Origin: Bacteroidia bacterium
Lineage (GTDB): Bacteria; Bacteroidota; Bacteroidia; NS11-12g; UBA9320
NCBI GenBank assembly: GCA_017857855.1
Contig: JAFMCI010000009.1
Coordinates: forward strand, 1-59,217
Length of the DNA stretch: 59,217 bases
Direction: 5' to 3'
Of the stretch, positions 46,375 to 58,141 are shown one piece after another. The position numbers and the translations under genes are program-made. Within the stretch, counting starts at the first letter, position 1. Each line of letters starts with the position of its first letter. The notes under the pieces were generated by a model. That model searched no databases and was not told where the DNA came from. It was given only the letters and a program-made list of their open reading frames with translations.

Positions 46375-47721
46375 ATGGGTCAGAATATTAAAATAAAACG
46401 CGGATTAGATATTAATTTAGAAGGTTCTCCTTCGAATGATATTTATAGCGTAAATTCCCCTGCTACGTTCGCAATCAAGCCTACCGATATCAAAGGTCTC
46501 GTACCAAAGATGAACGTTAAGCAAGGTGACGAAGTAAAGGCGGGTGATTGTCTTTTTACAGACAAGAAGAATGAACGAATTTGCTTCACCGCTCCGGTTA
46601 GTGGGGAAATAGCAGAAGTAGTAAGAGGCGACAGAAGAGCTATACTAGCAGTCAAAATATTGGCTGACTCCAAAGTTTCTTTCAAGAGCTTTGATACTAG
46701 CGGATACGAAACCAAAAGTGCCGATGAATTGAAGGAGCTTTTATTAACATCAGGTTTGTGGCCGTTCATAGTGCAACGACCATTTGGTGTCTTAGCAGAT
46801 CCTTCTGTTACTCCAAAAGCTATTCATGTTTCAGGTTTTGATTCTGCTCCTTTGGCAGCAGATGTATCTATTACCTTAAAGGGTGAAGAAGCTAACATAA
46901 AAGCGGGATTTGAAGTACTGAAAAAATTAACAAGTGGTAAAGTTCATCTTAATTTACATTCCGCAAAAGATAGCTCTGTTTATGCCGCTGTTGAAGGAGT
47001 GGAAAGAAATGACTTTAGTGGACCTCACCCAAGTGGTTTAGTAGGTGTTCAAATTAATAAGATTGACCCCATCAATAAAGGAGAAGTGGTATGGACTTTA
47101 AAACCACAGCACGTTGCTTTTATTGGTAAATTCTTTGAAACGGGTAATCTTAATTTGGAACAGACTATTGCGGTAGCAGGTTCAGAAGTATCAAAGCCAG
47201 GATATTACACTACTATAGTAGGCGCAGATGTTTCAGGTTTACTTGCCAATAATTTATTGAGTGATAACGTGAGAGTTATCAGCGGTAATGTGCTAACGGG
47301 TACCAAAATTTTGAAAAATGGCTATCTAGGTATGCATGATACCCAAATTTCGGTGATACCGGAAGGTGATCATTATGAGTTATTAGGATGGTTATTTCCA
47401 TCTTACCCTCGCCCTACTATAAGCTCTACCTTCCCAATATTTAAGTTTTTGAAAAAAACATTTAAAGCAAATACCAATCCGCATGGTGAGCACAGAGCCT
47501 ACGTGGTTACCGGTCAATACGAAAAAGTAATGCCAATGGACATTATGCCTCAGCAATTAATCAAGTCTATCATAGCTAAAGATTTAGAGCAAATGGAAAA
47601 TTTAGGTATATATGAAGTGATAGAAGAAGATATGGCTCTTTGTGAGTTTGTATGTACTTCTAAAATTGATGTACAAAGAGTGCTTTCGGAAGGTTTAGAA
47701 CTAATGGCTGAGGAGTCGTAA
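46375..47721 (+). CDS. nqrA: Na+-translocating NADH:quinone reductase subunit A
   Basis: NqrA is the cytoplasmic subunit of the Na+-NQR complex. The 448-residue protein begins IKIKRGLDINLEG and has RPFGVLADPSVTPKAIHVSG (20 residues) and the late CEFVCTSKIDVQRVL block. It has no membrane segment. It is the first of six nqr genes, with its own promoter; nqrB follows after 11 bases. Confidence 0.96.
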   Translation: MGQNIKIKRGLDINLEGSPSNDIYSVNSPATFAIKPTDIKGLVPKMNVKQGDEVKAGDCLFTDKKNERICFTAPVSGEIAEVVRGDRRAILAVKILADSKVSFKSFDTSGYETKSADELKELLLTSGLWPFIVQRPFGVLADPSVTPKAIHVSGFDSAPLAADVSITLKGEEANIKAGFEVLKKLTSGKVHLNLHSAKDSSVYAAVEGVERNDFSGPHPSGLVGVQINKIDPINKGEVVWTLKPQHVAFIGKFFETGNLNLEQTIAVAGSEVSKPGYYTTIVGADVSGLLANNLLSDNVRVISGNVLTGTKILKNGYLGMHDTQISVIPEGDHYELLGWLFPSYPRPTISSTFPIFKFLKKTFKANTNPHGEHRAYVVTGQYEKVMPMDIMPQQLIKSIIAKDLEQMENLGIYEVIEEDMALCEFVCTSKIDVQRVLSEGLELMAEES

Positions 47722-47732
47722 TAGTTACATAG

Positions 47733-48914
47733 ATGAAATTTTTAAGAGATCAAGTTGATAAATTAAAACCAACCTTTTCAGAGGGTGGTAAGTTAAGTTT
47801 CTTGCATTCTACATTTGATGCATTAGAAACATTCCTCTTTGTGCCCAACCATACTACACATAGTGGTGGTCATATTAGAGACGGTATAGACTTAAAACGT
47901 ACTATGTTTATCGTAGTTATTGCACTGCTTCCTGCACTTATGTTTGGTATGTGGAATTTGGGTTACCAATTTCACAGAGCAACAGGAATGGAAGTTAGCT
48001 TATTCGAAAACTTTTGGTATGGAATGCTTCAAACCTTACCTATCATTATAGTATCTTATGGTGTTGGTTTAGGTATAGAAATGGCTTTTGCGCAGTTCAA
48101 AGGACATCCAGTAAACGAAGGTTTCTTGGTAACAGGATTATTAATACCAATGGTTATGCCTGCAGATGTCCCATTGTGGATGGTAGGCTTAGCTACTGCA
48201 TTTGCAGTAGTTATTGGTAAAGAGGTGTTTGGTGGTACAGGGATGAACTTGTTAAATCCTGCGCTTACTGCCCGTATGTTCCTTTACATTGGTTATACGC
48301 CAGAAATGAGTGGTGATAAGTGTTGGGTGCCTATTGCAGATGGTGTTGCTACCGTGGATGGCTATTCAGGTGCTACAACCTTAGGTAATGTAGGAGTAGC
48401 GAGTTCTAATGGTACACCTTGGAGTGATTCATTGTTGTCATGGGGAACGAGTATATCAGATAGTATTATGGGAACAATTCCTGGATCTATTGCAGAAACT
48501 TCCGTTATTGCAATTTTATTAGGCGCAGTTATATTAATCGTGACAGGCGTAGGTAGTTGGAAAATAATGTTAAGTACCGTTATAGGTGCTTTATTTATGG
48601 GCGGTATTTTGAATCTTGCAGGCGGAAACGCATGGTACGATATGCCAGCGTGGTATCACCTAGTTATCGGTGGATTTATGTTTGGTACTGTATTTATGAC
48701 TACAGATCCTGTATCTGCAGCTCAAACAGAACGAGGTAAATGGATTTATGGATTCTTCATCGGTTTATTAACCGTACTTATTAGAGTATACAACCCGGGT
48801 TACCCAGAAGGAATCATGATGGCGATACTTCTTATGAACGTATTTGCACCATTAATTGACTATAGAGTAATTCAGTCTAACATTAAAACAAGATTAAATC
48901 GTGTCAAAGCTTAA
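47733..48914 (+). CDS. nqrB: Na+-translocating NADH:quinone reductase subunit B
   Basis: NqrB is the large membrane subunit, with about ten helices, carrying riboflavin and covalent FMN. The flavinylation motif SGAT is at residues 212-215, so T215 is the predicted FMN attachment site made by ApbE. GTGMNLLNPALTARMFLYIG (20 residues) and MTTDPVSAAQTERGKWIYG are further family signatures. The length of 393 residues is normal. It overlaps nqrC by 14 bases. Confidence 0.96.
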   Translation: MKFLRDQVDKLKPTFSEGGKLSFLHSTFDALETFLFVPNHTTHSGGHIRDGIDLKRTMFIVVIALLPALMFGMWNLGYQFHRATGMEVSLFENFWYGMLQTLPIIIVSYGVGLGIEMAFAQFKGHPVNEGFLVTGLLIPMVMPADVPLWMVGLATAFAVVIGKEVFGGTGMNLLNPALTARMFLYIGYTPEMSGDKCWVPIADGVATVDGYSGATTLGNVGVASSNGTPWSDSLLSWGTSISDSIMGTIPGSIAETSVIAILLGAVILIVTGVGSWKIMLSTVIGALFMGGILNLAGGNAWYDMPAWYHLVIGGFMFGTVFMTTDPVSAAQTERGKWIYGFFIGLLTVLIRVYNPGYPEGIMMAILLMNVFAPLIDYRVIQSNIKTRLNRVKA

Positions 48915-49638
48915 TAGAAATTCAAACGGGTATATCTTCGGATACGCCATCTTATTAACCCTTGTGTGCGGCACATTGCTAGCATTTGTGTCTGAAGGAT
49001 TAAAGGAAAAACAGAAAGCAGCTATACTTGTAGAAAAACAGAAGTTTATTCTAAGAGCAGGTTTAGGTGCAACTAGTTTAAATGGGTTAACAGATCCAAT
49101 GATTACTGAACTTTATAACCAAGTGGTTAAAGTTGAGACAATCAATTCAAAAGGGGAATCTGTTGAAGCAGATGAGGCCAAGCTTTCTATTTTTAAAGAG
49201 TATAAGAAACCAGCAGCTGAGCGAACACTACCTGTTTATGTAGTAGGGAAAAAAGATAATCCATCTGAAGTAGAATCTTTTGTATTACCCACTTACGGAA
49301 ACGGACTCTGGGATAATATTTGGGCTTATGTAGCTATAGACGGAGATGCTGAGACTATTGAAGGTATCGTGTTTGACCACAAAGGTGAAACTCCAGGATT
49401 AGGTGCAAGAATTACAGACGCTGAAATTCAAGAACGATTTGTAGGTAAGAAATTAGCCTATGAAGCAAGTTCGATAAATGCCCCTGATTTTCAAAAAGGA
49501 GAAGGCAATAACTTTGACAATGAACCTCAAAAAGTAGATGGTATGAGTGGAGCTACAATCACTGGAACCGGTGTAAATGCAATGCTTGATGCATATATGA
49601 CCTTATATCAACCGTACTTAGTTACTAAAAAGAAATAA
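48901..49638 (+). CDS. nqrC: Na+-translocating NADH:quinone reductase subunit C
   Basis: NqrC has one N-terminal membrane helix (about 9-29) and a periplasmic FMN domain. The flavinylation motif SGAT lies at residues 216-219, with T219 as the predicted FMN site (T225 in Vibrio). GETPGLGARITD is also typical. The start is a GTG inside nqrB. The 245-residue length fits. nqrD follows after one base. Confidence 0.96.
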   Translation: MSKLNRNSNGYIFGYAILLTLVCGTLLAFVSEGLKEKQKAAILVEKQKFILRAGLGATSLNGLTDPMITELYNQVVKVETINSKGESVEADEAKLSIFKEYKKPAAERTLPVYVVGKKDNPSEVESFVLPTYGNGLWDNIWAYVAIDGDAETIEGIVFDHKGETPGLGARITDAEIQERFVGKKLAYEASSINAPDFQKGEGNNFDNEPQKVDGMSGATITGTGVNAMLDAYMTLYQPYLVTKKK

Positions 49639-49639
49639 T

Positions 49640-50299
49640 ATGAGCACAGAAGTAATCGATAAAGTAGAAGTGAAAAAAGAGACAGAAGCTCTTTTTTCAA
49701 AAAAACGCAAATCCCTGGTTAGCAATCCAATGGATAGTGACAATCCTATTACAATACAAGTATTGGGAATATGCTCAGCTCTAGCCGTAACTATTGCATT
49801 ACAAGGAACTCTTATTATGGCTTTTGCTGTAATGTTTGTGGTTATGATGGCTAACGTTGTAATCTCTGCACTTAGAAATACAATACCAAATAGAATAAGA
49901 ATCATCGTACAATTAGTAGTTGTAGCTACATTAGTGGCTACCGTAGATCAGACACTCAGAGCTTTTGCTTACGAGCAATCAAAAGCTCTTTCGGTTTTTG
50001 TTGGTCTTATTATTACTAACTGTATCGTTATGGGTCGTCTCGAGGCTTTTGCTATGGGAAACAAACCATGGGATTCACTATTGGACGGTTTTGGAAATTC
50101 TTTGGGTTACGCTTGGATAATTATTGCCATCGCGTTTGTTAGAGAATTATTAGGTGCTGGTAAATTATTGGGATTTCAAGTACTGGATAAAGCATGGTAT
50201 ACTGCTAACGGATTTTTCGCAACTCCCGCTGCAGCATGTATCATTTTAGGTGTTATCATCTGGATACTTCGTGCAAGAAGCGGTTATGTAGAAGATTAA
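49640..50299 (+). CDS. nqrD: Na+-translocating NADH:quinone reductase subunit D
   Basis: NqrD is a membrane subunit with about six helices. Cysteines C45 (LGICSALAV) and C128 (ITNCIVMGR) are at the positions that, with two from NqrE, ligate an iron centre in the middle of the membrane. At 219 residues it has a somewhat extended N-terminus (about 33 residues). RELLGAGKLLG and the late ACIILG segment are family features. Confidence 0.96.
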   Translation: MSTEVIDKVEVKKETEALFSKKRKSLVSNPMDSDNPITIQVLGICSALAVTIALQGTLIMAFAVMFVVMMANVVISALRNTIPNRIRIIVQLVVVATLVATVDQTLRAFAYEQSKALSVFVGLIITNCIVMGRLEAFAMGNKPWDSLLDGFGNSLGYAWIIIAIAFVRELLGAGKLLGFQVLDKAWYTANGFFATPAAACIILGVIIWILRARSGYVED

Positions 50300-50334: not shown

Positions 50335-50955
50335 ATGGAAAATTTATTAAACATATTCGTAAGGTCAATCTTTATTGACAATATGATATTCGCTTACTTC
50401 CTAGGTATGTGCTCATACTTGGCAGTATCCAAAAAATATAAAACAGCTACAGGACTAGGCGCAGCTGTAATTTTTGTGTTAGCCATTACAGTTCCACTTA
50501 ACTGGTTAGCCTATAATTATTTATTAAAAGAAGGTGCATTAACTTGGGTAAGTGAAAACTTAGCTGATGTAGATTTGGAAGTACTTAAATTTATCGTATT
50601 CATTGCAATTGTTGCAGCTTTTGTACAATTGATAGAAATGATAGTAGAGAAGTTTTCACCTTCACTGTACAATGCGTTGGGTATTTTCTTGCCTCTAATC
50701 GCAGTAAACTGCTCCATTCTTGGTGCAGCCTTGTTTTTACCTTCACGTGAGTACAATTTAGCCGAAGCGACTACATTTGGTGTTGGTTCAGGTGTTGGAT
50801 GGTTTTTAGCAGTAGTGTCGCTTGCCGCTATCAGAGAAAAAATGGCTTACAGTGATGTGCCTAAGCCATTAAGAGGATTGGGAATTACTTTCATCGTTGT
50901 GGGTCTTATGGCCTTTGGCTTTATGAGTTTCGCAGGATTTAAACTTCCATTTTAA
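50335..50955 (+). CDS. nqrE: Na+-translocating NADH:quinone reductase subunit E
   Basis: NqrE is the paralogous, inverted partner of NqrD. It has about six membrane helices and cysteines C26 (LGMCSYLAV) and C126 (AVNCSILG) that complete the iron site. [20 protein letters not shown] (20 residues) at the N-terminus and [10 protein letters not shown] near the end are typical. It has 206 residues and lies 35 bases after nqrD. Confidence 0.96.
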
Positions 50956-50969
50956 GAAAAGTAAGAAAA

Positions 50970-52292
50970 ATGTTATTAGCAATAAATCAAACAGTAATCA
51001 TACTAGCGGCAGTAGTATTTACGCTCGTTATAATACTCTTAGTAACTATGCTTGTAGTTGCAGCTAAAAGATTAGTAAACTCAGGTGCAGTAAAGCTGAC
51101 CATTAATGGAGAAAGAGAAGTAGAAGTGGAAGCGGGTGGTACCCTCTTGGGTGCATTACAACAAGCAAATCTATTTTTACCTTCTGCATGCGGCGGAGGT
51201 GGTACTTGTGCAATGTGCAAATGTCAAGTTATGTCTGGTGGAGGTGACATACTTCCTACAGAAACAGGACATATTAAACGTAAAGATCAAAAGGATAATT
51301 GGAGACTCGCTTGCCAAGTTAAGGTGAAAGAGAATATGGTAGTTGAAGTTCCAGAGGAAGTTTTTGGGATTAAAAAATGGGATTGTACAGTTGTTTCAAA
51401 CTATAACGTAGCATCATTCATCAAAGAATTTGTAGTTAGACTCCCAGAAGGTGAGCATCTTGATTTCGAAGCAGGAGGATATATTCAAGTGGATGTTCCA
51501 CCAATAGAAGTTGATTTTAGTACTATAGATATTACTGCTCATCCAGAGTTGGTTGCATTGGGTAGAGACCCTATGGATTTTAAATCTGAGTGGGATAAAT
51601 ATGCTCTTTGGGATCTCAAAATGATTAATGATGAACCAATTTTTAGAGCATACTCGATGGCTAATCACCCAGCAGAGGGTAATATCGTTATGCTGAACAT
51701 ACGTATTGCCACCCCGCCATGGGATAGAAAAAATAACAAATGGATGGATGTAAATCCGGGGATTTGTTCTTCATATGTTTTCGGTTGTAAACCAGGCGAT
51801 AAAGTAACTGTCTCAGGCCCTTATGGAGAATTCTTCATAAAAGAAACTGGAGCAGAAATGCTGTACATAGGGGGTGGAGCTGGAATGGCGCCTATGCGTT
51901 CTCATCTTTTCCATTTATTTCACACACTAAAAACTGGTAGAAAAGTAACCTATTGGTATGGAGGAAGAAGTAAAAGAGAATTGTTTTATCTAGATCACTT
52001 CAATAAAATAGCTGCAGACTTCCCTAACTTTAAATTTTTCATCGTCCTATCGGATGCTGTGCCAGAAGATAACTGGGTTGCTAAAACAGATGTTAACGAT
52101 ACCACTGGAGATGGATTTACGGGCTTTGTACATCAAGCCGTGATAGATCAGTACTTAAGTAAACATGAGTCGCCTGAAGATATTGAATTCTATTTCTGTG
52201 GACCTCCGATGATGAACCAAGCGGTACTTAAAATGTGTGACGATTGGGGCGTTCCTCCTGAAAATGTGGCATTTGACGATTTTGGCGGTTAA
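50970..52292 (+). CDS. nqrF: Na+-translocating NADH:quinone reductase subunit F
   Basis: NqrF takes electrons from NADH. It has an N-terminal membrane helix (about 8-28), a plant-type 2Fe-2S domain with C74, C80, C83 and C115 ([10 protein letters not shown] then LAC), an FAD domain with RAYSMAN, and an NADH domain with [12 protein letters not shown] and [13 protein letters not shown]. The length of 440 residues is slightly above that in Vibrio. Its stop codon lies 42 bases before the terminator-like hairpin inside apbE. Confidence 0.97.
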
Positions 52293-52312: not shown

Positions 52313-53341
52313 ATGAATTTATATTATAAAACTAAAGGCAGAGTAATCTGCCTTTTTTTTGTGTTATCAATACTGGAGTCTTGCAGTAGTGATAAGAAAA
52401 TAGTTACCCAGAGACTTGAAGGTAATGCGATTGGAACAACATATCATATTTCCTATTTGGGTGACGAGATTAAAAATTTATCCCAAAAGATTGACTCCAT
52501 AACGGTTGCGGTAAATCACGGATTATCCACGTATCAGGTTAATTCGATGGTAACAGCATTCAATTCAAATTCTGATTCTATTTGGAAAATTCCCTCAGAG
52601 TATGATCATTATACTGACGATATGCAGCATTTTATCGAGATGCTGACTTTATCTAAAACGATTACGCAAGAAACGTTAGGTGCTTTTGATCCATCTGCAG
52701 CATCACTTTTTGAAGTCTATAATAGGGCTAAAAAAGATGGTGTATTTATGAAAGATTCAGATGTTGAAGAGTGCAAAAAGCATCAAGGAATGGAAAAAAT
52801 ACAGTTTGATGAAAAGGGTAATCCCTATAAACTAGATTCTCTTGTTGCAGTTAATTTTAATGCTATCGCCAAGGGTTATTTAGTAGATATTATTTCGCTT
52901 TATCTGGAAACCAACGGGGTTATGGATTTTATGGTAGAGGTGGGTGGAGAACTTAGAGTGAAAGGTAAGAATGATGAAGGAACATTTTGGAAGGTGGGCG
53001 TAAATACACCAATAATCAATGCAAATCCTTCAGACTTCTTCACTGTCCTGGAGCTTGAAAACGTATCCTTAGCCACAAGTGGAAATTACCAAAACTTTTA
53101 TGAAGTTAATGGAAATATAATTGGTCACACCTTAGATCCTAGAAGTGGTAAGCCGGTTATAAATACATTGAAAAGTGCAAGTGTGCTGCACGATTATTGT
53201 GCCGTTGCAGATGCGTATGCTACCGCATGTATGGTCTTGGGTCTGGATGAGGCAACTAAGCTTATAAAAGCAAATAAGAGCCTTTCAGCCTATTTTATTT
53301 ATGACGATGGAACTTCACTGAAGGGCGTGTACGTAGAATAA
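52313..53341 (+). CDS. apbE: FAD:protein FMN transferase ApbE
   Basis: ApbE attaches FMN to the SGAT threonines of NqrB and NqrC. The 342-residue product is a lipoprotein with lipobox cysteine C24 (LESC), so it acts in the periplasm facing NqrC. Family motifs include GNAIGTTYHISY, VNFNAIAKGYLVD, FMVEVGGELRVKG and HTLDPRSGKPV. It starts 20 bases after nqrF and completes the operon. Codons 8-16, in the signal peptide, form a strong terminator-like hairpin with a T run. Confidence 0.95.
   Translation: MNLYYKTKGRVICLFFVLSILESCSSDKKIVTQRLEGNAIGTTYHISYLGDEIKNLSQKIDSITVAVNHGLSTYQVNSMVTAFNSNSDSIWKIPSEYDHYTDDMQHFIEMLTLSKTITQETLGAFDPSAASLFEVYNRAKKDGVFMKDSDVEECKKHQGMEKIQFDEKGNPYKLDSLVAVNFNAIAKGYLVDIISLYLETNGVMDFMVEVGGELRVKGKNDEGTFWKVGVNTPIINANPSDFFTVLELENVSLATSGNYQNFYEVNGNIIGHTLDPRSGKPVINTLKSASVLHDYCAVADAYATACMVLGLDEATKLIKANKSLSAYFIYDDGTSLKGVYVE
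52334..52360 (+). terminator. Terminator-like hairpin inside the apbE signal peptide codons
   Basis: A perfect nine-pair stem (52334-52342 with 52347-52355) closes on a GTAA loop and is followed by a T run through 52360. It begins 42 bases after the nqrF stop and encodes apbE residues 8-16. As RNA it has all features of an intrinsic terminator, so it may end most nqr transcripts before apbE unless ribosomes starting at 52313 open it. Confidence 0.7.
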
Positions 53342-53462: not shown

Positions 53463-54710
53463 ATGAATGATCTAGCCAAAAATGTAGCCGAACGCTTTAT
53501 GCGTTATGTACAAATAGATACACAAAGTGACCCTAACAGCGTCTTGTTTCCAAGTACCGAAAAGCAGAAAAATTTAAGTAACATACTGGTAGAAGAATTA
53601 TTGTCTATAGGTGTTAATGATGCCTATATGGATGAACATGGTTATGTGTTTGGTACGTTGTCGAGCACTTCAGCTAAAGAGAATTTGGAGACAATTTGCT
53701 TCTGTTCTCATGTGGATACAGCGCCAGATTGCAGTGGGACAGACGTTAGGCCCATACTTCATGCTAATTATCAAGGTCAAGATATCATCTTGCCAGACGA
53801 TACTACTCAGGTTATTACCATCGCACAACATAAGTATTTATCAGAGCGTATCGGAGACGATATAATTACAGCGAGTGGGAAGACTCTCCTTGGAGCAGAC
53901 GATAAGGCTGGGGTGGCCATCATAATGCAACTAGCGGCAGAATTGGTAAACAATCCAACAATTAAGCACGGGGATATCCGAATTCTATTTACACCAGATG
54001 AAGAAGTAGGAAGGGGAGTAGAAATGCTGGACATGAAAAAACTGAATGCCGATGTTGGATATACTTTAGACGGAGGGCCAAGAGGCTCACTCGAAGGTGA
54101 CACGTTTTCGGCGAACGCTATGACCATTACATTTCACGGCATAAGTGCTCACCCAGGGTATGCAAAAGGTAAAATGGTGAATGCAGTAAAAGTTATTAGT
54201 CATTTTATGGAATCCTTACCGGCAATAGGTTTTTCGCCAGAAACAACGAGTGGCTCTGAAGGATTTGTTCATCCCTATAACTTGAAAGGGCAGTTGGAAA
54301 CAGCGAGTGTCGATTTCTTAATACGAGATTTCACTACTGCTAATTTGGAGAATCACCAGGCCGTATTGATTGAACTAGCTGAAGCAACTATAGCCCGATT
54401 TCCAGGTGCTAGATATGAAACTAGAATAAAGGAACAATATCGCAATATGCGAGAAGTGCTAGATACCAAACCCTATATAGAAGAATATGCCGTAGAGGCG
54501 ATGCATCGTGTGGGCATAAAACCTAGACAAGACCTTGTTCGTGGAGGTACGGATGGCTCACGCTTATCGTTTATGGGTTTACCATGTCCGAATCTTTTTA
54601 CCGGTGAAATGGCCATACACGGCAAACACGAATATGTGAGCGTGCAAGACATGGAAGCTGCGATAAAAACATGTATCGAGTTGGTGCAGGTGTATGAAGA
54701 GAAGGCTTGA
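53463..54710 (+). CDS. pepT: Peptidase T (tripeptide aminopeptidase)
   Basis: PepT is a cytoplasmic M20-family zinc peptidase releasing the N-terminal residue of tripeptides. Metal ligands lie in FCSHVDTAPD, LGADDKAGVA and FTPDEEVGRG, and RGGTDGSRLSFMGLPCPNLF (20 residues) marks the C-terminal catalytic part. The length of 415 residues is normal. It is a single gene, with a TTACTTTG stretch 18 bases upstream as a possible promoter element. Confidence 0.94.
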   Translation: MNDLAKNVAERFMRYVQIDTQSDPNSVLFPSTEKQKNLSNILVEELLSIGVNDAYMDEHGYVFGTLSSTSAKENLETICFCSHVDTAPDCSGTDVRPILHANYQGQDIILPDDTTQVITIAQHKYLSERIGDDIITASGKTLLGADDKAGVAIIMQLAAELVNNPTIKHGDIRILFTPDEEVGRGVEMLDMKKLNADVGYTLDGGPRGSLEGDTFSANAMTITFHGISAHPGYAKGKMVNAVKVISHFMESLPAIGFSPETTSGSEGFVHPYNLKGQLETASVDFLIRDFTTANLENHQAVLIELAEATIARFPGARYETRIKEQYRNMREVLDTKPYIEEYAVEAMHRVGIKPRQDLVRGGTDGSRLSFMGLPCPNLFTGEMAIHGKHEYVSVQDMEAAIKTCIELVQVYEEKA

Positions 54711-54755: not shown

Positions 54756-55307
54756 ATGAGATATCCTCTAGTTCTTTTTGCCCTAATACTTGCAGGCGCT
54801 TCTGGTGCTCAAAGTTCATTTGAACTCTTTGGGGAATCGAAATACTTATATACGACCGTGCGCCAAGTACTCGGTGTTTCCTATAAAGTAAATACCTACA
54901 CCCACTCGTTATACTTTAGCTATGACAAAGCGAGCTCTGATCAGCGAAACGTAGGAGTAGGATATCAGTTGGGTTACACCTTGGCCAGTGGATGGGGTAT
55001 AGATGCAAGTATACAGGGTAGATTTGGAGAATTCCGTACGGGCTCCAAAGATATTGGTGGGCTGGTTGTTTCGTGTCACGGAAAATTCGTGCTGGAGGAA
55101 GGCATTGGATTGCACTATCAGCTCAAACGGAAATTTTTAAACGATAGATTAACTGTTCAGCCGTTTGTGCGTATAAGCTTTGCACAAGGTTTTGATCAAG
55201 TAGAAGAATTAGAAAATTCACCGATAAGTTACGAGTGTGATATCCCTTTACGTGATGTTTCGTATCCTTATCTAGGCTTGCAATATAGATTTAGGTTAAC
55301 GAAGTAG
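54756..55307 (+). CDS. Small outer membrane beta-barrel-like protein, function unknown
   Basis: The 183-residue protein has a signal peptide (about 1-18, ending SGAQ) and alternating amphipathic strands ending in YLGLQYRFRLTK, consistent with an eight-stranded outer membrane barrel. I do not recognise a family. It lies between pepT and the ABC pair and is preceded by only 45 bases after pepT, so it may be read from the pepT transcript. Confidence 0.7.
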   Translation: MRYPLVLFALILAGASGAQSSFELFGESKYLYTTVRQVLGVSYKVNTYTHSLYFSYDKASSDQRNVGVGYQLGYTLASGWGIDASIQGRFGEFRTGSKDIGGLVVSCHGKFVLEEGIGLHYQLKRKFLNDRLTVQPFVRISFAQGFDQVEELENSPISYECDIPLRDVSYPYLGLQYRFRLTK

Positions 55308-55390: not shown

Positions 55391-56299
55391 ATGACAGAGA
55401 TTTTCAAGGTTGAGAACCTTAAAAAGAAATTTAACCGATCCGGGTTTCAACTATCCGTAGACCAGCTCTCGCTATTAGCAGGTTCAATAACGGGGGTTGT
55501 TGGAGAAAATGGAAATGGTAAAACCACATTACTTGATATTATAGCGGGAGAAACCAAAGCCAATGGTCAATTTCATTATTTTGGAATTGAAGCAAATAGC
55601 CATACCAATTGGTTAGAATTAAAAAACAATATTGGTTTTATCCCCCAGCGTATACCAAGGTGGTACGGTACACTAGAGCAAAACTTGGTAATAAAAGCTG
55701 CCTTAGAAGGTATTTCTGCCGGCAATATTGATGGAGAGTTGGACAAGTTATTAGATTTTTTAGGTTTGCAAGAATATCGAAAACTTAATTGGACTGAGAT
55801 ATCGACAGGATATAGGCTTCGATTTGAGTTAGCTCGAATTCTTATAGGCAATCCCCGATTATTGGTTTTGGATGAGCCACTAGCTAATCTAGACATAAAT
55901 ACACAACAGAAATTTCTTTCTGATTTAAAAAAATTATTAGCGAAAAAAGACTATCCATTAGCTGTAATTCTTAGTAGTCAACAATTGCATGAAATAGAAT
56001 CTGTGGCAGACCAAATGCTATTTATTAAAAAGGGAGAAGTGTTGTATAACGGAAATTTAGCCAATATAGCTCTAGACGAAGAGCATGTGTACGAGCTCCA
56101 ACTTAATGATAGAGAAGGGCATGATACAGAAGCTTACTTTGATAGTATGGGATATAAGGTATGTATTGTAGGTCCTTATTACCAAATAACCACGAAGCAA
56201 TCCGTTTCTATATTTTTAAAGACTCTGAGTGATAACGACATGGAGATTAAGTATTTTAGGAATTTGAGTAACTCAACTAAACGATTTTTTAATAACTGA
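55391..56299 (+). CDS. ABC transporter ATP-binding protein with altered H-loop
   Basis: This is a 302-residue ABC ATPase. Walker A GENGNGKTT is at residues 38-46, the Q-loop is IGFIPQR, and Walker B is LLVLDEP. The signature is STGYR rather than LSGGQ. In the H-loop the expected histidine is glutamine Q197 (LSSQQLHEIE), which normally impairs hydrolysis. A C-terminal extension (about 220-302) follows. It overlaps the next gene by one base; that gene encodes the likely membrane partner. The substrate is unknown. Confidence 0.85.
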   Translation: MTEIFKVENLKKKFNRSGFQLSVDQLSLLAGSITGVVGENGNGKTTLLDIIAGETKANGQFHYFGIEANSHTNWLELKNNIGFIPQRIPRWYGTLEQNLVIKAALEGISAGNIDGELDKLLDFLGLQEYRKLNWTEISTGYRLRFELARILIGNPRLLVLDEPLANLDINTQQKFLSDLKKLLAKKDYPLAVILSSQQLHEIESVADQMLFIKKGEVLYNGNLANIALDEEHVYELQLNDREGHDTEAYFDSMGYKVCIVGPYYQITTKQSVSIFLKTLSDNDMEIKYFRNLSNSTKRFFNN

Positions 56300-57759
56300 T
56301 GCTTCAAAGATTTAAAAACTGGGATGTTCGTATAAGCAAGTCTTATCCGAAAATATGGATTCTTGGAGTTCATATTTATCTTCCTATATTAACCATAATG
56401 GCATTAACTTTTTATGCCTTTGGGTGGGCTTATAACATAACGAATATGCCGCCTATGAGAGAAGTAAATGATTATGGATATGGCCTACTTCAATTTGCGA
56501 TTTTGCCAATGCTTCTGGCAGGAATTATGTATTTTATACGGCAAATTAAATTTAACTCTTTGCGTGTACACCACCATTTGCCTTATAAAAATCCCTACTT
56601 AAGTTTTATAACGTTCGTGATTGTATTTTTTATCATTACAGCAACGCCATTTATAGCTGGGGTAGGAATGCATCATAAGTTTAGTAAACAGATAGATGAA
56701 CGTCAATTTATTGAAGACCTGTCGATATTAAACAAAGGATATTCTCACTTTTATCAAAAGGAGTTCACTGGGGTAGTATATGCAGCATCAGTAAGCATGG
56801 TAAGTGATAGTGATTTGGAAGTAGTTCAATCTCCAGAAGGGAAGCAAACTATTGTAGAGACGTATCGGTTAGATAAAGCCACAGGTAATCTCATTCTTTA
56901 TAGAGAAATAGCTCATAGAGAGGTAGATGGCAATTATATCGGAGATACATCGTTGCAATGTTATGCGCGCTATGGTTGGGATACCATAAGTGTGGCTCAA
57001 GCTCATCAAGAAATGCACGATTTTATAGATGCTGCACCCCGATATTATGGCGAAATCAAGGATAAGGATGTTCAAAAAATTTTCATGCAACATCTCTTGC
57101 ATGTTGCCAAGTATAGAGACACAGAAGATTATAATAGTCCGGATTTTAATCAAATTGGGGATAGAAATCGTTTTGAAAGTACGTTAGGGACATATTCAGC
57201 AGTAATTACCAAGGATGACGTATTTATAGGTTCCTCATTAGGATTTTGGCTTTATTATATTATCTTCTCTCTTAGTGTGAGTACTATTTTATTTATAGTA
57301 TGTTCCGTGAGAATAATAGATTTTGGTTGGTCAATGCTAGTTGTGGCTCTTACGGGAATGTTTGTGATGATAGCCAACGGACTGCTCACTGTATTTCGCT
57401 GGTTACCTTCCAATACAGAGATTCAGTTTAACCTAATTCTTATTACGGTTCTTGTCGTTATTTTTATGTTGTTAATTGGAGCAAAATGGCTAAAATCAAG
57501 TATAAGTAAAGCGTTTACGATTGCGTTGCAGTTATTACTTCCGGCCACTGTTTTTGCTTACTTCGGACTATTTGATAATTTGCATGATTGCCCTTATCGC
57601 GGAGAAAATTGGGCTGAACAGTGCAAAGATTTTGAATATTTTACCAATACAGATTACTATTTAATGGCTTATGGGATTTGTGTTTTGGCTAGCCTATTCG
57701 GGGTATATGTTTTTAATCGCATTTATATCCGACAATACGTCCATCCAAAACAACAGTAG
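56299..57759 (+). CDS. Multi-pass membrane protein, probable partner of the adjacent ABC ATPase
   Basis: I recognise no family for this 486-residue protein. It has hydrophobic segments at about 22-48, 57-75, 95-120, 310-335, 343-370, 380-400, 410-430 and 450-475, with a large soluble domain (about 125-310) between the third and fourth, probably extracytoplasmic. The layout resembles a type of ABC-2-like permease with a long loop. The overlap with the ABC gene (TGATG) supports a two-gene transporter or a mechanical or regulatory complex. A YFxxTDYYL segment near the C-terminus has no known meaning. Confidence 0.72.
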   Translation: MLQRFKNWDVRISKSYPKIWILGVHIYLPILTIMALTFYAFGWAYNITNMPPMREVNDYGYGLLQFAILPMLLAGIMYFIRQIKFNSLRVHHHLPYKNPYLSFITFVIVFFIITATPFIAGVGMHHKFSKQIDERQFIEDLSILNKGYSHFYQKEFTGVVYAASVSMVSDSDLEVVQSPEGKQTIVETYRLDKATGNLILYREIAHREVDGNYIGDTSLQCYARYGWDTISVAQAHQEMHDFIDAAPRYYGEIKDKDVQKIFMQHLLHVAKYRDTEDYNSPDFNQIGDRNRFESTLGTYSAVITKDDVFIGSSLGFWLYYIIFSLSVSTILFIVCSVRIIDFGWSMLVVALTGMFVMIANGLLTVFRWLPSNTEIQFNLILITVLVVIFMLLIGAKWLKSSISKAFTIALQLLLPATVFAYFGLFDNLHDCPYRGENWAEQCKDFEYFTNTDYYLMAYGICVLASLFGVYVFNRIYIRQYVHPKQQ

Positions 57760-57791: not shown

Positions 57792-58001
57792 TTAAGCAGG
57801 GGCCTCTTCGCTCTTACATTCTTCGGTAGGCATTGCGCCACACATGGTGCACGCAACTCCTTCTTCTTGCATCATCGGGTTTTTACCCGCACAACCGCCT
57901 CTGACTTCTCCATTTTTTACTAAAAAAAGTCGAACGGCCATACCTATTAAGGCGATGGTTAATAGGGTAAGAATTAATCCAAGTACTACTAGAAATTGCA
58001 T
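57792..58001 (-). CDS. Small membrane protein with four cysteines, NqrM-like candidate
   Basis: The 69-residue protein has one N-terminal membrane helix (about 3-28) and a short tail with C37, C51, C54 and C62 (GGCAGK then CTMCGAMPTEEC). NqrM, the iron-delivery factor for NqrD/NqrE, has the same layout: one helix, a GSCGG motif, then a C-x-C-x3-C cluster. The spacing here differs, so this is a divergent candidate rather than a firm assignment. It lies 4.5 kb from apbE. A TACCTTTG promoter element sits four bases before the ATG. Confidence 0.75.
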   Translation of the reverse strand: MQFLVVLGLILTLLTIALIGMAVRLFLVKNGEVRGGCAGKNPMMQEEGVACTMCGAMPTEECKSEEAPA

Positions 58002-58005
58002 GACG

Positions 58006-58013
58006 CAAAGGTA
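58006..58013 (-). promoter_or_regulatory. -7 promoter element of the NqrM-like gene
   Basis: On the minus strand this reads TACCTTTG, an exact TAnnTTTG match, four bases before the start codon. The transcript would be nearly leaderless. Confidence 0.6.
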
Positions 58014-58141
58014 TTCGATTAAACATAATATAACCGGTCATTTTGCCGATACATCTGTCATATTTACCGACGAAAATGGTAAGGTAACTTTTTGGCACTA
58101 TATTCGTAAAACTTAAATTAGTAATCGTGCAAAGTCACTTT

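Follow-up and report, generated by a model that had tools for sequence, protein, structure and literature searches.

A small gene in the window (the whole 59,217-nucleotide stretch of Bacteroidia DNA that was analyzed) encodes a protein that, with a probability of roughly 80%, is a Bacteroidota counterpart of NqrM that equips the NqrD and NqrE subunits of Na+-NQR with their intramembranous [2Fe-2S] cluster. This unusual cluster lies midway through the membrane; its insertion is poorly understood. To our knowledge, NqrM is the sole factor that has been proposed for inserting the cluster into NqrD-E, and it is needed for the assembly of active Na+-NQR according to a published account (PMC12174285). 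The assignment would fill a gap, in that 65 of 345 Bacteroidota genomes carry NQR and none carries a recognizable NqrM, and would provide a likely function for an uncharacterized Bacteroidota family of several hundred proteins. An NqrM-like role had been proposed in a sequence-only reading of the same DNA, and this proposal is now supported by the phyletic profile, the position of the gene, the cysteine tail, and the predicted topology of the protein.

The product of the candidate gene (Table 1) is MQFLVVLG...GGCAGKNPMMQEEGVACTMCGAMPTEECKSEEAPA, in which a membrane helix at the N-terminus, spanning approximately residues 2-29, is followed by a tail that carries the cysteines C37, C51, C54, and C62. 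In an AlphaFold2 model made from 72 sequences, the helix (residues 2-29) is confident, with mean pLDDT values of 92 for residues 1-10 and 95 for residues 11-20, and the tail is of low confidence (mean pLDDT 73). Purifying selection on the gene is strong: when the candidate is compared with nine of the ten relatives used, pS ranges from 0.08 to 0.83 and pN from 0.006 to 0.15, and the tenth relative (L008) yields a pS of 1.00 and a pN of 0.112. Copies from the same genus differ mostly at silent sites, as exemplified by L007 (pS 0.76, pN 0.15). The sequence TAnnTTTG, which we take to be the -7 promoter element of Bacteroidota, is present within 60 bp upstream of 26 of the 27 members examined, compared to 3% of random 60-mers from the window, and by this sign the candidate gene appears to have its own Bacteroidota-type promoter. 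Because the element ends just 4 bp before the ATG, the candidate transcript may be leaderless. The same 4-bp spacing is seen in L003, L004, L025, L028, L029, L030, and L036, which suggests leaderless transcripts; other family members mostly carry the element about 22-32 bp upstream of the start.

An open reading frame for 90 amino acids on the plus strand (57844-58116) overlaps the candidate, and the latter might thus have been a chance frame, or an antisense shadow of the true gene. This explanation, to which we assign a negligible probability, is already refuted by the selection acting on the minus frame, by the spread of homologues of the minus-strand gene across Bacteroidota, and by the conservation of the promoter ahead of the minus-strand ATG. 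The 69-residue one-helix protein with its four cysteines, as first described from the letters, is confirmed from the sequence and belongs to a conserved gene.

The window also encodes the presumptive target. NqrD and NqrE had been said to retain all four cysteines of the cluster site, and alignment to the Proteus proteins bears this out: C45 and C128 of NqrD align with C29 and C112, and C26 and C126 of NqrE align with C26 and C120. In Vibrio cholerae NQR, the four cysteines of NqrD and NqrE are the ligands of the [2Fe-2S] cluster, as stated in one report (PMC9325719) and likewise for Vibrio NQR in another (PMC10643135). The latter also describes how NqrD-E opens to the cytoplasm when the cluster is oxidized (PMC10643135), and such an opening offers a plausible entry route for iron or the cluster. 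The further claim that the nqr operon of the window holds no gene of the NqrM type proved correct, and four genes (pepT and three others) separate the candidate from apbE.

Table 1. Coordinates of the candidate gene, its surroundings in the window, and related small genes at other loci.
Feature	Position	Strand	Remarks
nqrA	46375..47721	+	TIGR01936, 465.8 bits, over cut-off
nqrB	47733..48914	+	TIGR01937, 455.8 bits, over cut-off
nqrC	48901..49638	+	TIGR01938, 169.6 bits, over cut-off
nqrD	49640..50299	+	TIGR01939, 262.1 bits, over cut-off; cluster cysteines C45, C128
nqrE	50335..50955	+	TIGR01940, 312.6 bits, over cut-off; cluster cysteines C26, C126
nqrF	50970..52292	+	TIGR01941, 581 bits, over cut-off
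apbE (FAD:protein FMN transferase)	52313..53341	+	PF02424, 215.6 bits; NCBIfam ApbE below cut-off
pepT	53463-54710	+	between apbE and candidate
183-aa ORF	54756-55307	+	between apbE and candidate; no match in NCBIfam or Pfam
ABC ATPase	55391-56299	+	between apbE and candidate
486-aa membrane protein	56299-57759	+	between ABC ATPase and candidate
Candidate gene	57792..58001	-	intact ATG-to-TAA ORF, stop included; 69 codons, 69-aa product
Putative -7 promoter element of candidate, TACCTTTG (TAnnTTTG)	58006..58013	-	4 bp before ATG
Type B members	L111:12831-13055, L112:12684-12890, L114:5537-5740, L115:5860-6075, L116:12633-12854; also L199-L209		
Cysteine-poor relatives	L108:3414-3644, L110:3426-3641, L213, L215		

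A scan of genome contigs confirmed at least 574 stretches as relatives of the candidate, and the taxa represented among 80 of these are Bacteroidetes/Bacteroidia, Flavobacteriales, Cytophagales, Saprospiraceae, and Balneolaceae. Seven positions (K29, C37, A38, P42, C51, C54, and G55) are invariant in 72 aligned members, all of which share a rigid cysteine tail with the spacing C-x13-C-x2-C-x7-C (66 members) or C-x13-C-x2-C-x8-C (six members). Because the segment that follows the helix has a net charge of about +2.2 and the N-terminus one of about 0, the positive-inside rule predicts a cytoplasmic location for the tail. One protein, encoded at L118:4310-4528 in genome G403 (...GTCAGSNIKMKEKGITCGCGPEGCQ...), has the arrangement C-x13-C-x-C-x4-C, in which the fourth cysteine is near; it is a possible intermediate, judged by its spacing, between the Bacteroidota family and NqrM of gamma-proteobacteria.

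Established family libraries do not recognize these proteins as NqrM. The Pfam model for NqrM, PF04400, has a curated cut-off of 22 bits and matches 14 of 14 real NqrMs, and it matches none of 34 family members at E<=10 and does not match the window protein, so that the family falls outside formal PF04400 membership. The family has no convincing match in either Pfam or NCBIfam. Its CxxC part gives weak matches resembling zinc ribbons, with such models scoring in 16 and 15 of the 34 members and reaching E values of about 3e-4 at best; a zinc-ribbon identity of the tail was rejected, since these matches are weak and the window protein falls under the curated scores. A plasmid search using a family member of the flavobacterial type returned no match.

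The distribution of the family among genomes follows NQR. Of 345 Bacteroidota genomes sampled across the phylum, each at least 90% complete, 51 are matched by the family profile (A1), 49 of them with the full cysteine tail and two through cysteine-poor paralogues. The nqrD gene (TIGR01939) scores over its cut-off in 65 genomes of this sample, including all 51 with an A1 match; the A1 profile matches none of the 280 genomes lacking nqrD, among which are 22 that are RNF-only. The family therefore tracks NQR and not RNF (Fisher value against nqrD 1.7e-48, a figure that ignores the relatedness of the genomes). Presence and absence also vary within genera: family and nqrD occur together in G191, G261, and G396 of genus g29 and in G048 and G052 of genus g13, and both are missing from eight and seven other checked genomes of these genera, respectively.

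In the order of the source organism, the family and nqrD are each found in 34 of 108 genomes, 31 of which have both, and when completeness of 90% or more and contamination of 5% or less are required, each is found in 21 of 64. Three incomplete genomes (70-73%) of the window's genus have the family, with nqrD and nqrF absent from the assembly. Missing sequence likely explains these cases, because the neighbors of their family genes (pepT and/or the 183-aa ORF) match those of nqr-bearing sisters. Another three incomplete genomes of the order (68-84%) have an nqrD match alone, in one instance below the cut-off.

Two observations had been named in advance as ones that would count against the proposal, namely a wide occurrence of the family in genomes without nqr and a canonical nqrM elsewhere in the same genome. 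The first is contradicted by the counts given above. As for the second, PF04400 finds nothing over its cut-off in the source genome (98% complete) or in any of the 345 Bacteroidota genomes, and it detects NqrM in four of four Pseudomonadota records used as a positive control. Weak PF04400 matches at E<=1 in 113 of the 345 genomes were judged to be due to chance, as they are short pieces, some with internal stops, and the best of them (in G390) is an arginine-rich ORF that lacks a helix.

Gene position provides additional evidence. Among 80 named loci chosen by sequence similarity alone, with flanks of up to 6 kb that are shorter at contig ends, 51 are flanked by an Nqr or ApbE gene, and the remaining 29 have neither. 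The family gene comes within 400 bp of apbE, typically at 3-60 bp, in 39 of these 80 loci, 38 times tail-to-tail and once (L171) in the same direction. It also adjoins apbE in 13 of a further 14 loci that were preselected for known proximity, and at L095 the genes nqrA-F, apbE, and the family gene follow each other on one strand throughout. Annotated nqrM genes lie directly 3' of apbE in Ruegeria, Providencia, and others, and come after nqrF in Enterobacter and Klebsiella. Pseudomonadota thus keep nqrM in the slot beside apbE that is occupied by the family. In the window's genus, the family gene stands at the distal end of the nqr-apbE segment, and pepT and further genes intervene. Relatives of the 183-aa ORF, the membrane protein, and pepT recur in various combinations at this same place in some genomes of the genus.

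A direct relationship to NqrM is harder to establish from profiles, and the HMM-HMM comparison suggested with the sequence-only reading gave a mixed result. HHalign of the family against NqrM yields 94% with an E value of 1e-7, and shuffling the NqrM tail columns gave a score that high in 15 of 100 trials. This match was set aside as proof of descent because the shuffles reveal that the helix carries the score. Real tails contribute just a few bits (on average 8.5 versus 5.0), and 570 of 1,980 shuffles did equally well or better. A profile of the tail only gives no signal, as 2 of 99 exceeded the 95th percentile of the shuffled scores. What does stand is a set of reciprocal matches between full-length profiles. 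When a profile of 14 NqrMs was searched over the 5,592 ORFs of all non-NqrM loci (134 family members, 11 type B proteins as described below, and 5,447 decoys), E<=0.01 was reached by 29 family members, one type B protein, and one decoy, and E<=1 by 78 of the 134 family members, all 11 type B proteins, and five of the 5,447 decoys. The decoy interspersed with the family members is the arginine-rich ORF of G390, and none of 151 hydrophobic decoys reaches the median score of the family. In the reverse search, in which a family profile was run against the 14 NqrMs, 11 type B proteins, and 5,447 decoys, the top 16 positions are taken by 12 NqrMs and four type B proteins; the first decoy appears at E 0.18, and the remaining two NqrMs at E 0.62 and 1.4. 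The family profile also ranks the annotated nqrM best in whole plasmid records of Paracoccus and Ruegeria; it gives no match in a Proteus record and misses the nqrM of Neisseria, so that the gene is found in two of four records. Common descent of the family with NqrM is likely on these profile scores, with the signal mainly in the helix. The resemblance to NqrM is seen in the full-length matches, and neither in the tail-only profile nor with PF04400.

Most of the sampled Bacteroidota that have NQR and no member of the full family carry another small protein. The 65 genomes with nqrD divide into 49 with the full family, 11 with a protein that we call type B, four with a cysteine-poor relative, and one with none of these. 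Fourteen of the 65 have no A1 match, and 11 of these belong to f19, a family of the same phylum as the source that is listed outside its class. Type B, a one-helix protein with a CCGGGxC tail, is found by its own profile (A4) in all 11 nqr genomes of f19 and in none of the four RNF-only genomes of f19; across the 80 genomes searched with A4, of which 25 have nqrD over the cut-off, there are only two marginal matches (E 0.009) beyond these eleven. In the five loci inspected, the type B gene follows immediately 3' of apbE and in the same orientation. These proteins resemble the family in their single helix, cysteine-rich tail, and slot adjoining apbE, and the CCGGG-x-C tail is closer to the GSCGG of NqrM than is the family tail. 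The family profile does not match type B proteins apart from one at E 0.004, and the one type B member scanned against Pfam has no match. Type B is probably the NqrM counterpart of the f19 lineage.

Cysteine-poor relatives are the sole type in the nqr genomes G345, G447, G337, and G444 of families f13 and f14, where A1 matches are weak (G337 and G444) or absent (G345 and G447). They share the helix and linker with the family (profile E 2e-7 to 2e-6), but C37 is replaced and the CxxC is lost, and at the one locus of such a paralogue that was read, there is no nqr beside the gene. Families f13 and f14 are taken to be Bacteroidales because the named plasmid-collection records that resemble these relatives are from Bacteroides, Phocaeicola, and Parabacteroides. 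The nqr genomes of Bacteroidales thus have neither the full family nor type B. In Parabacteroides, a pair of small ORFs that follow nqrF was considered and rejected, as the cysteine motif is absent. The last genome, G371 (L113), carries nqrA-F, and the family, type B, and the cysteine-poor relative were not found in it. Its nqr contig is possibly stray, because the genome has 3% contamination. In G371, apbE does not adjoin nqrA-F, and the other listed members of its genus (g79) have RNF-type matches only. The description of the candidate as a Bacteroidota form of NqrM is therefore too broad for the phylum, as f19 carries type B and Bacteroidales carry neither.

The candidate is best regarded as an NqrM counterpart because the apbE slot, the four-cysteine tail, the predicted topology, and the reciprocal NqrM matches agree. 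In such a role, the single helix would anchor the protein next to NqrD and NqrE, and the cysteines of the cytoplasmic C-x13-C-x2-C-x7-C tail would bind iron or a nascent cluster. The tail could then pass its cargo to the four mid-membrane cysteines of NqrD-E while this site is open to the cytoplasm.

Certain observations would also fit an accessory protein of NQR with some other job, such as an extra small subunit, a factor for the ferredoxin cluster of NqrF, or a partner of ApbE in flavinylation. The family is associated with nqr and apbE as a complete set, its gene adjoins apbE and not nqrD or nqrE, and the weak zinc-ribbon scores of some members suggest that the tail could be structural. 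RNF subunits are flavinylated by ApbE as well (PMC12174285), however, and the absence of the family from all 22 RNF-only genomes argues against partnership with ApbE. Furthermore, the slot on the apbE side holds nqrM in Pseudomonadota, and canonical NqrM is absent here. These considerations make a different accessory role unlikely, if still the most serious competitor. Far less probable is a thiol or metal sensor, or some other stress protein, that merely resides near nqr. The 29 loci with no Nqr or ApbE gene in their flanks and the family gene's own promoter would be expected of such a protein, but its complete absence from the 280 genomes without nqrD and the way in which its presence switches together with nqr inside genera would not.

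Relative to the family libraries and literature searched, the primary NqrM papers excepted, the claim of an NqrM counterpart is new. The sources consulted on NqrM and DUF539 include PMC6209661, PMC12174285, PMC12682751, and PMC12746109, and further literature searches listed nothing on an NqrM in Bacteroidota. If the NqrM-counterpart reading is correct, a second naturally occurring form of the factor becomes available for comparison, which would show which features matter (the helix, G-x-C, and CxxC or CxC). A more tentative proposal, to which we give somewhat worse than even odds, is that there are several separately shaped maturation factors for NQR that have nothing in common beyond a membrane helix and a tail with cysteines. 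Pseudomonadota would have NqrM, most Bacteroidota the GTCAS/CxxC form, f19 the CCGGGxC form, and Bacteroidales nothing recognizable. If so, either the tail arose anew on a shared anchor or the delivery chemistry accommodates widely differing sets of ligands, and in NQR of the Bacteroides type, maturation of the membrane cluster would proceed without any such factor. Bacteroidales are in any case singled out as a lineage with unexplained NQR maturation.

Comparison with the NqrM proteins of Proteus, Klebsiella, Neisseria, and Ruegeria reveals both likenesses and differences. Proteins of both types are about 70 amino acids long and begin with a helix that has a G-M/I-A motif near its end, followed by a lysine-rich linker, a G-[S/T/G]-C directly after the linker, and more cysteines 10-30 residues further on. 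For both, the gene adjoins apbE in many genomes and nqrA-F are present in the same genome. However, the family gene mostly lies on the opposite strand and has a promoter of its own, and the family tail reads GTCAS-x-NP...C-x2-CG...P-x-E-x-C, whereas that of NqrM begins GSCGGL. The G-S-C-G-G of NqrM is invariant in 14 aligned proteins and corresponds to G-[T/G/S]-C-A-[S/G] in the family, where the first glycine and the cysteine are kept and the GG is replaced. The cysteines of the family are spaced C-x13-C-x2-C-x7/8-C, as opposed to C-x11-C-x-C-x3-C in gamma-proteobacterial NqrM and C-x11-C-x2-C-x15-C in the alpha-proteobacterial form.
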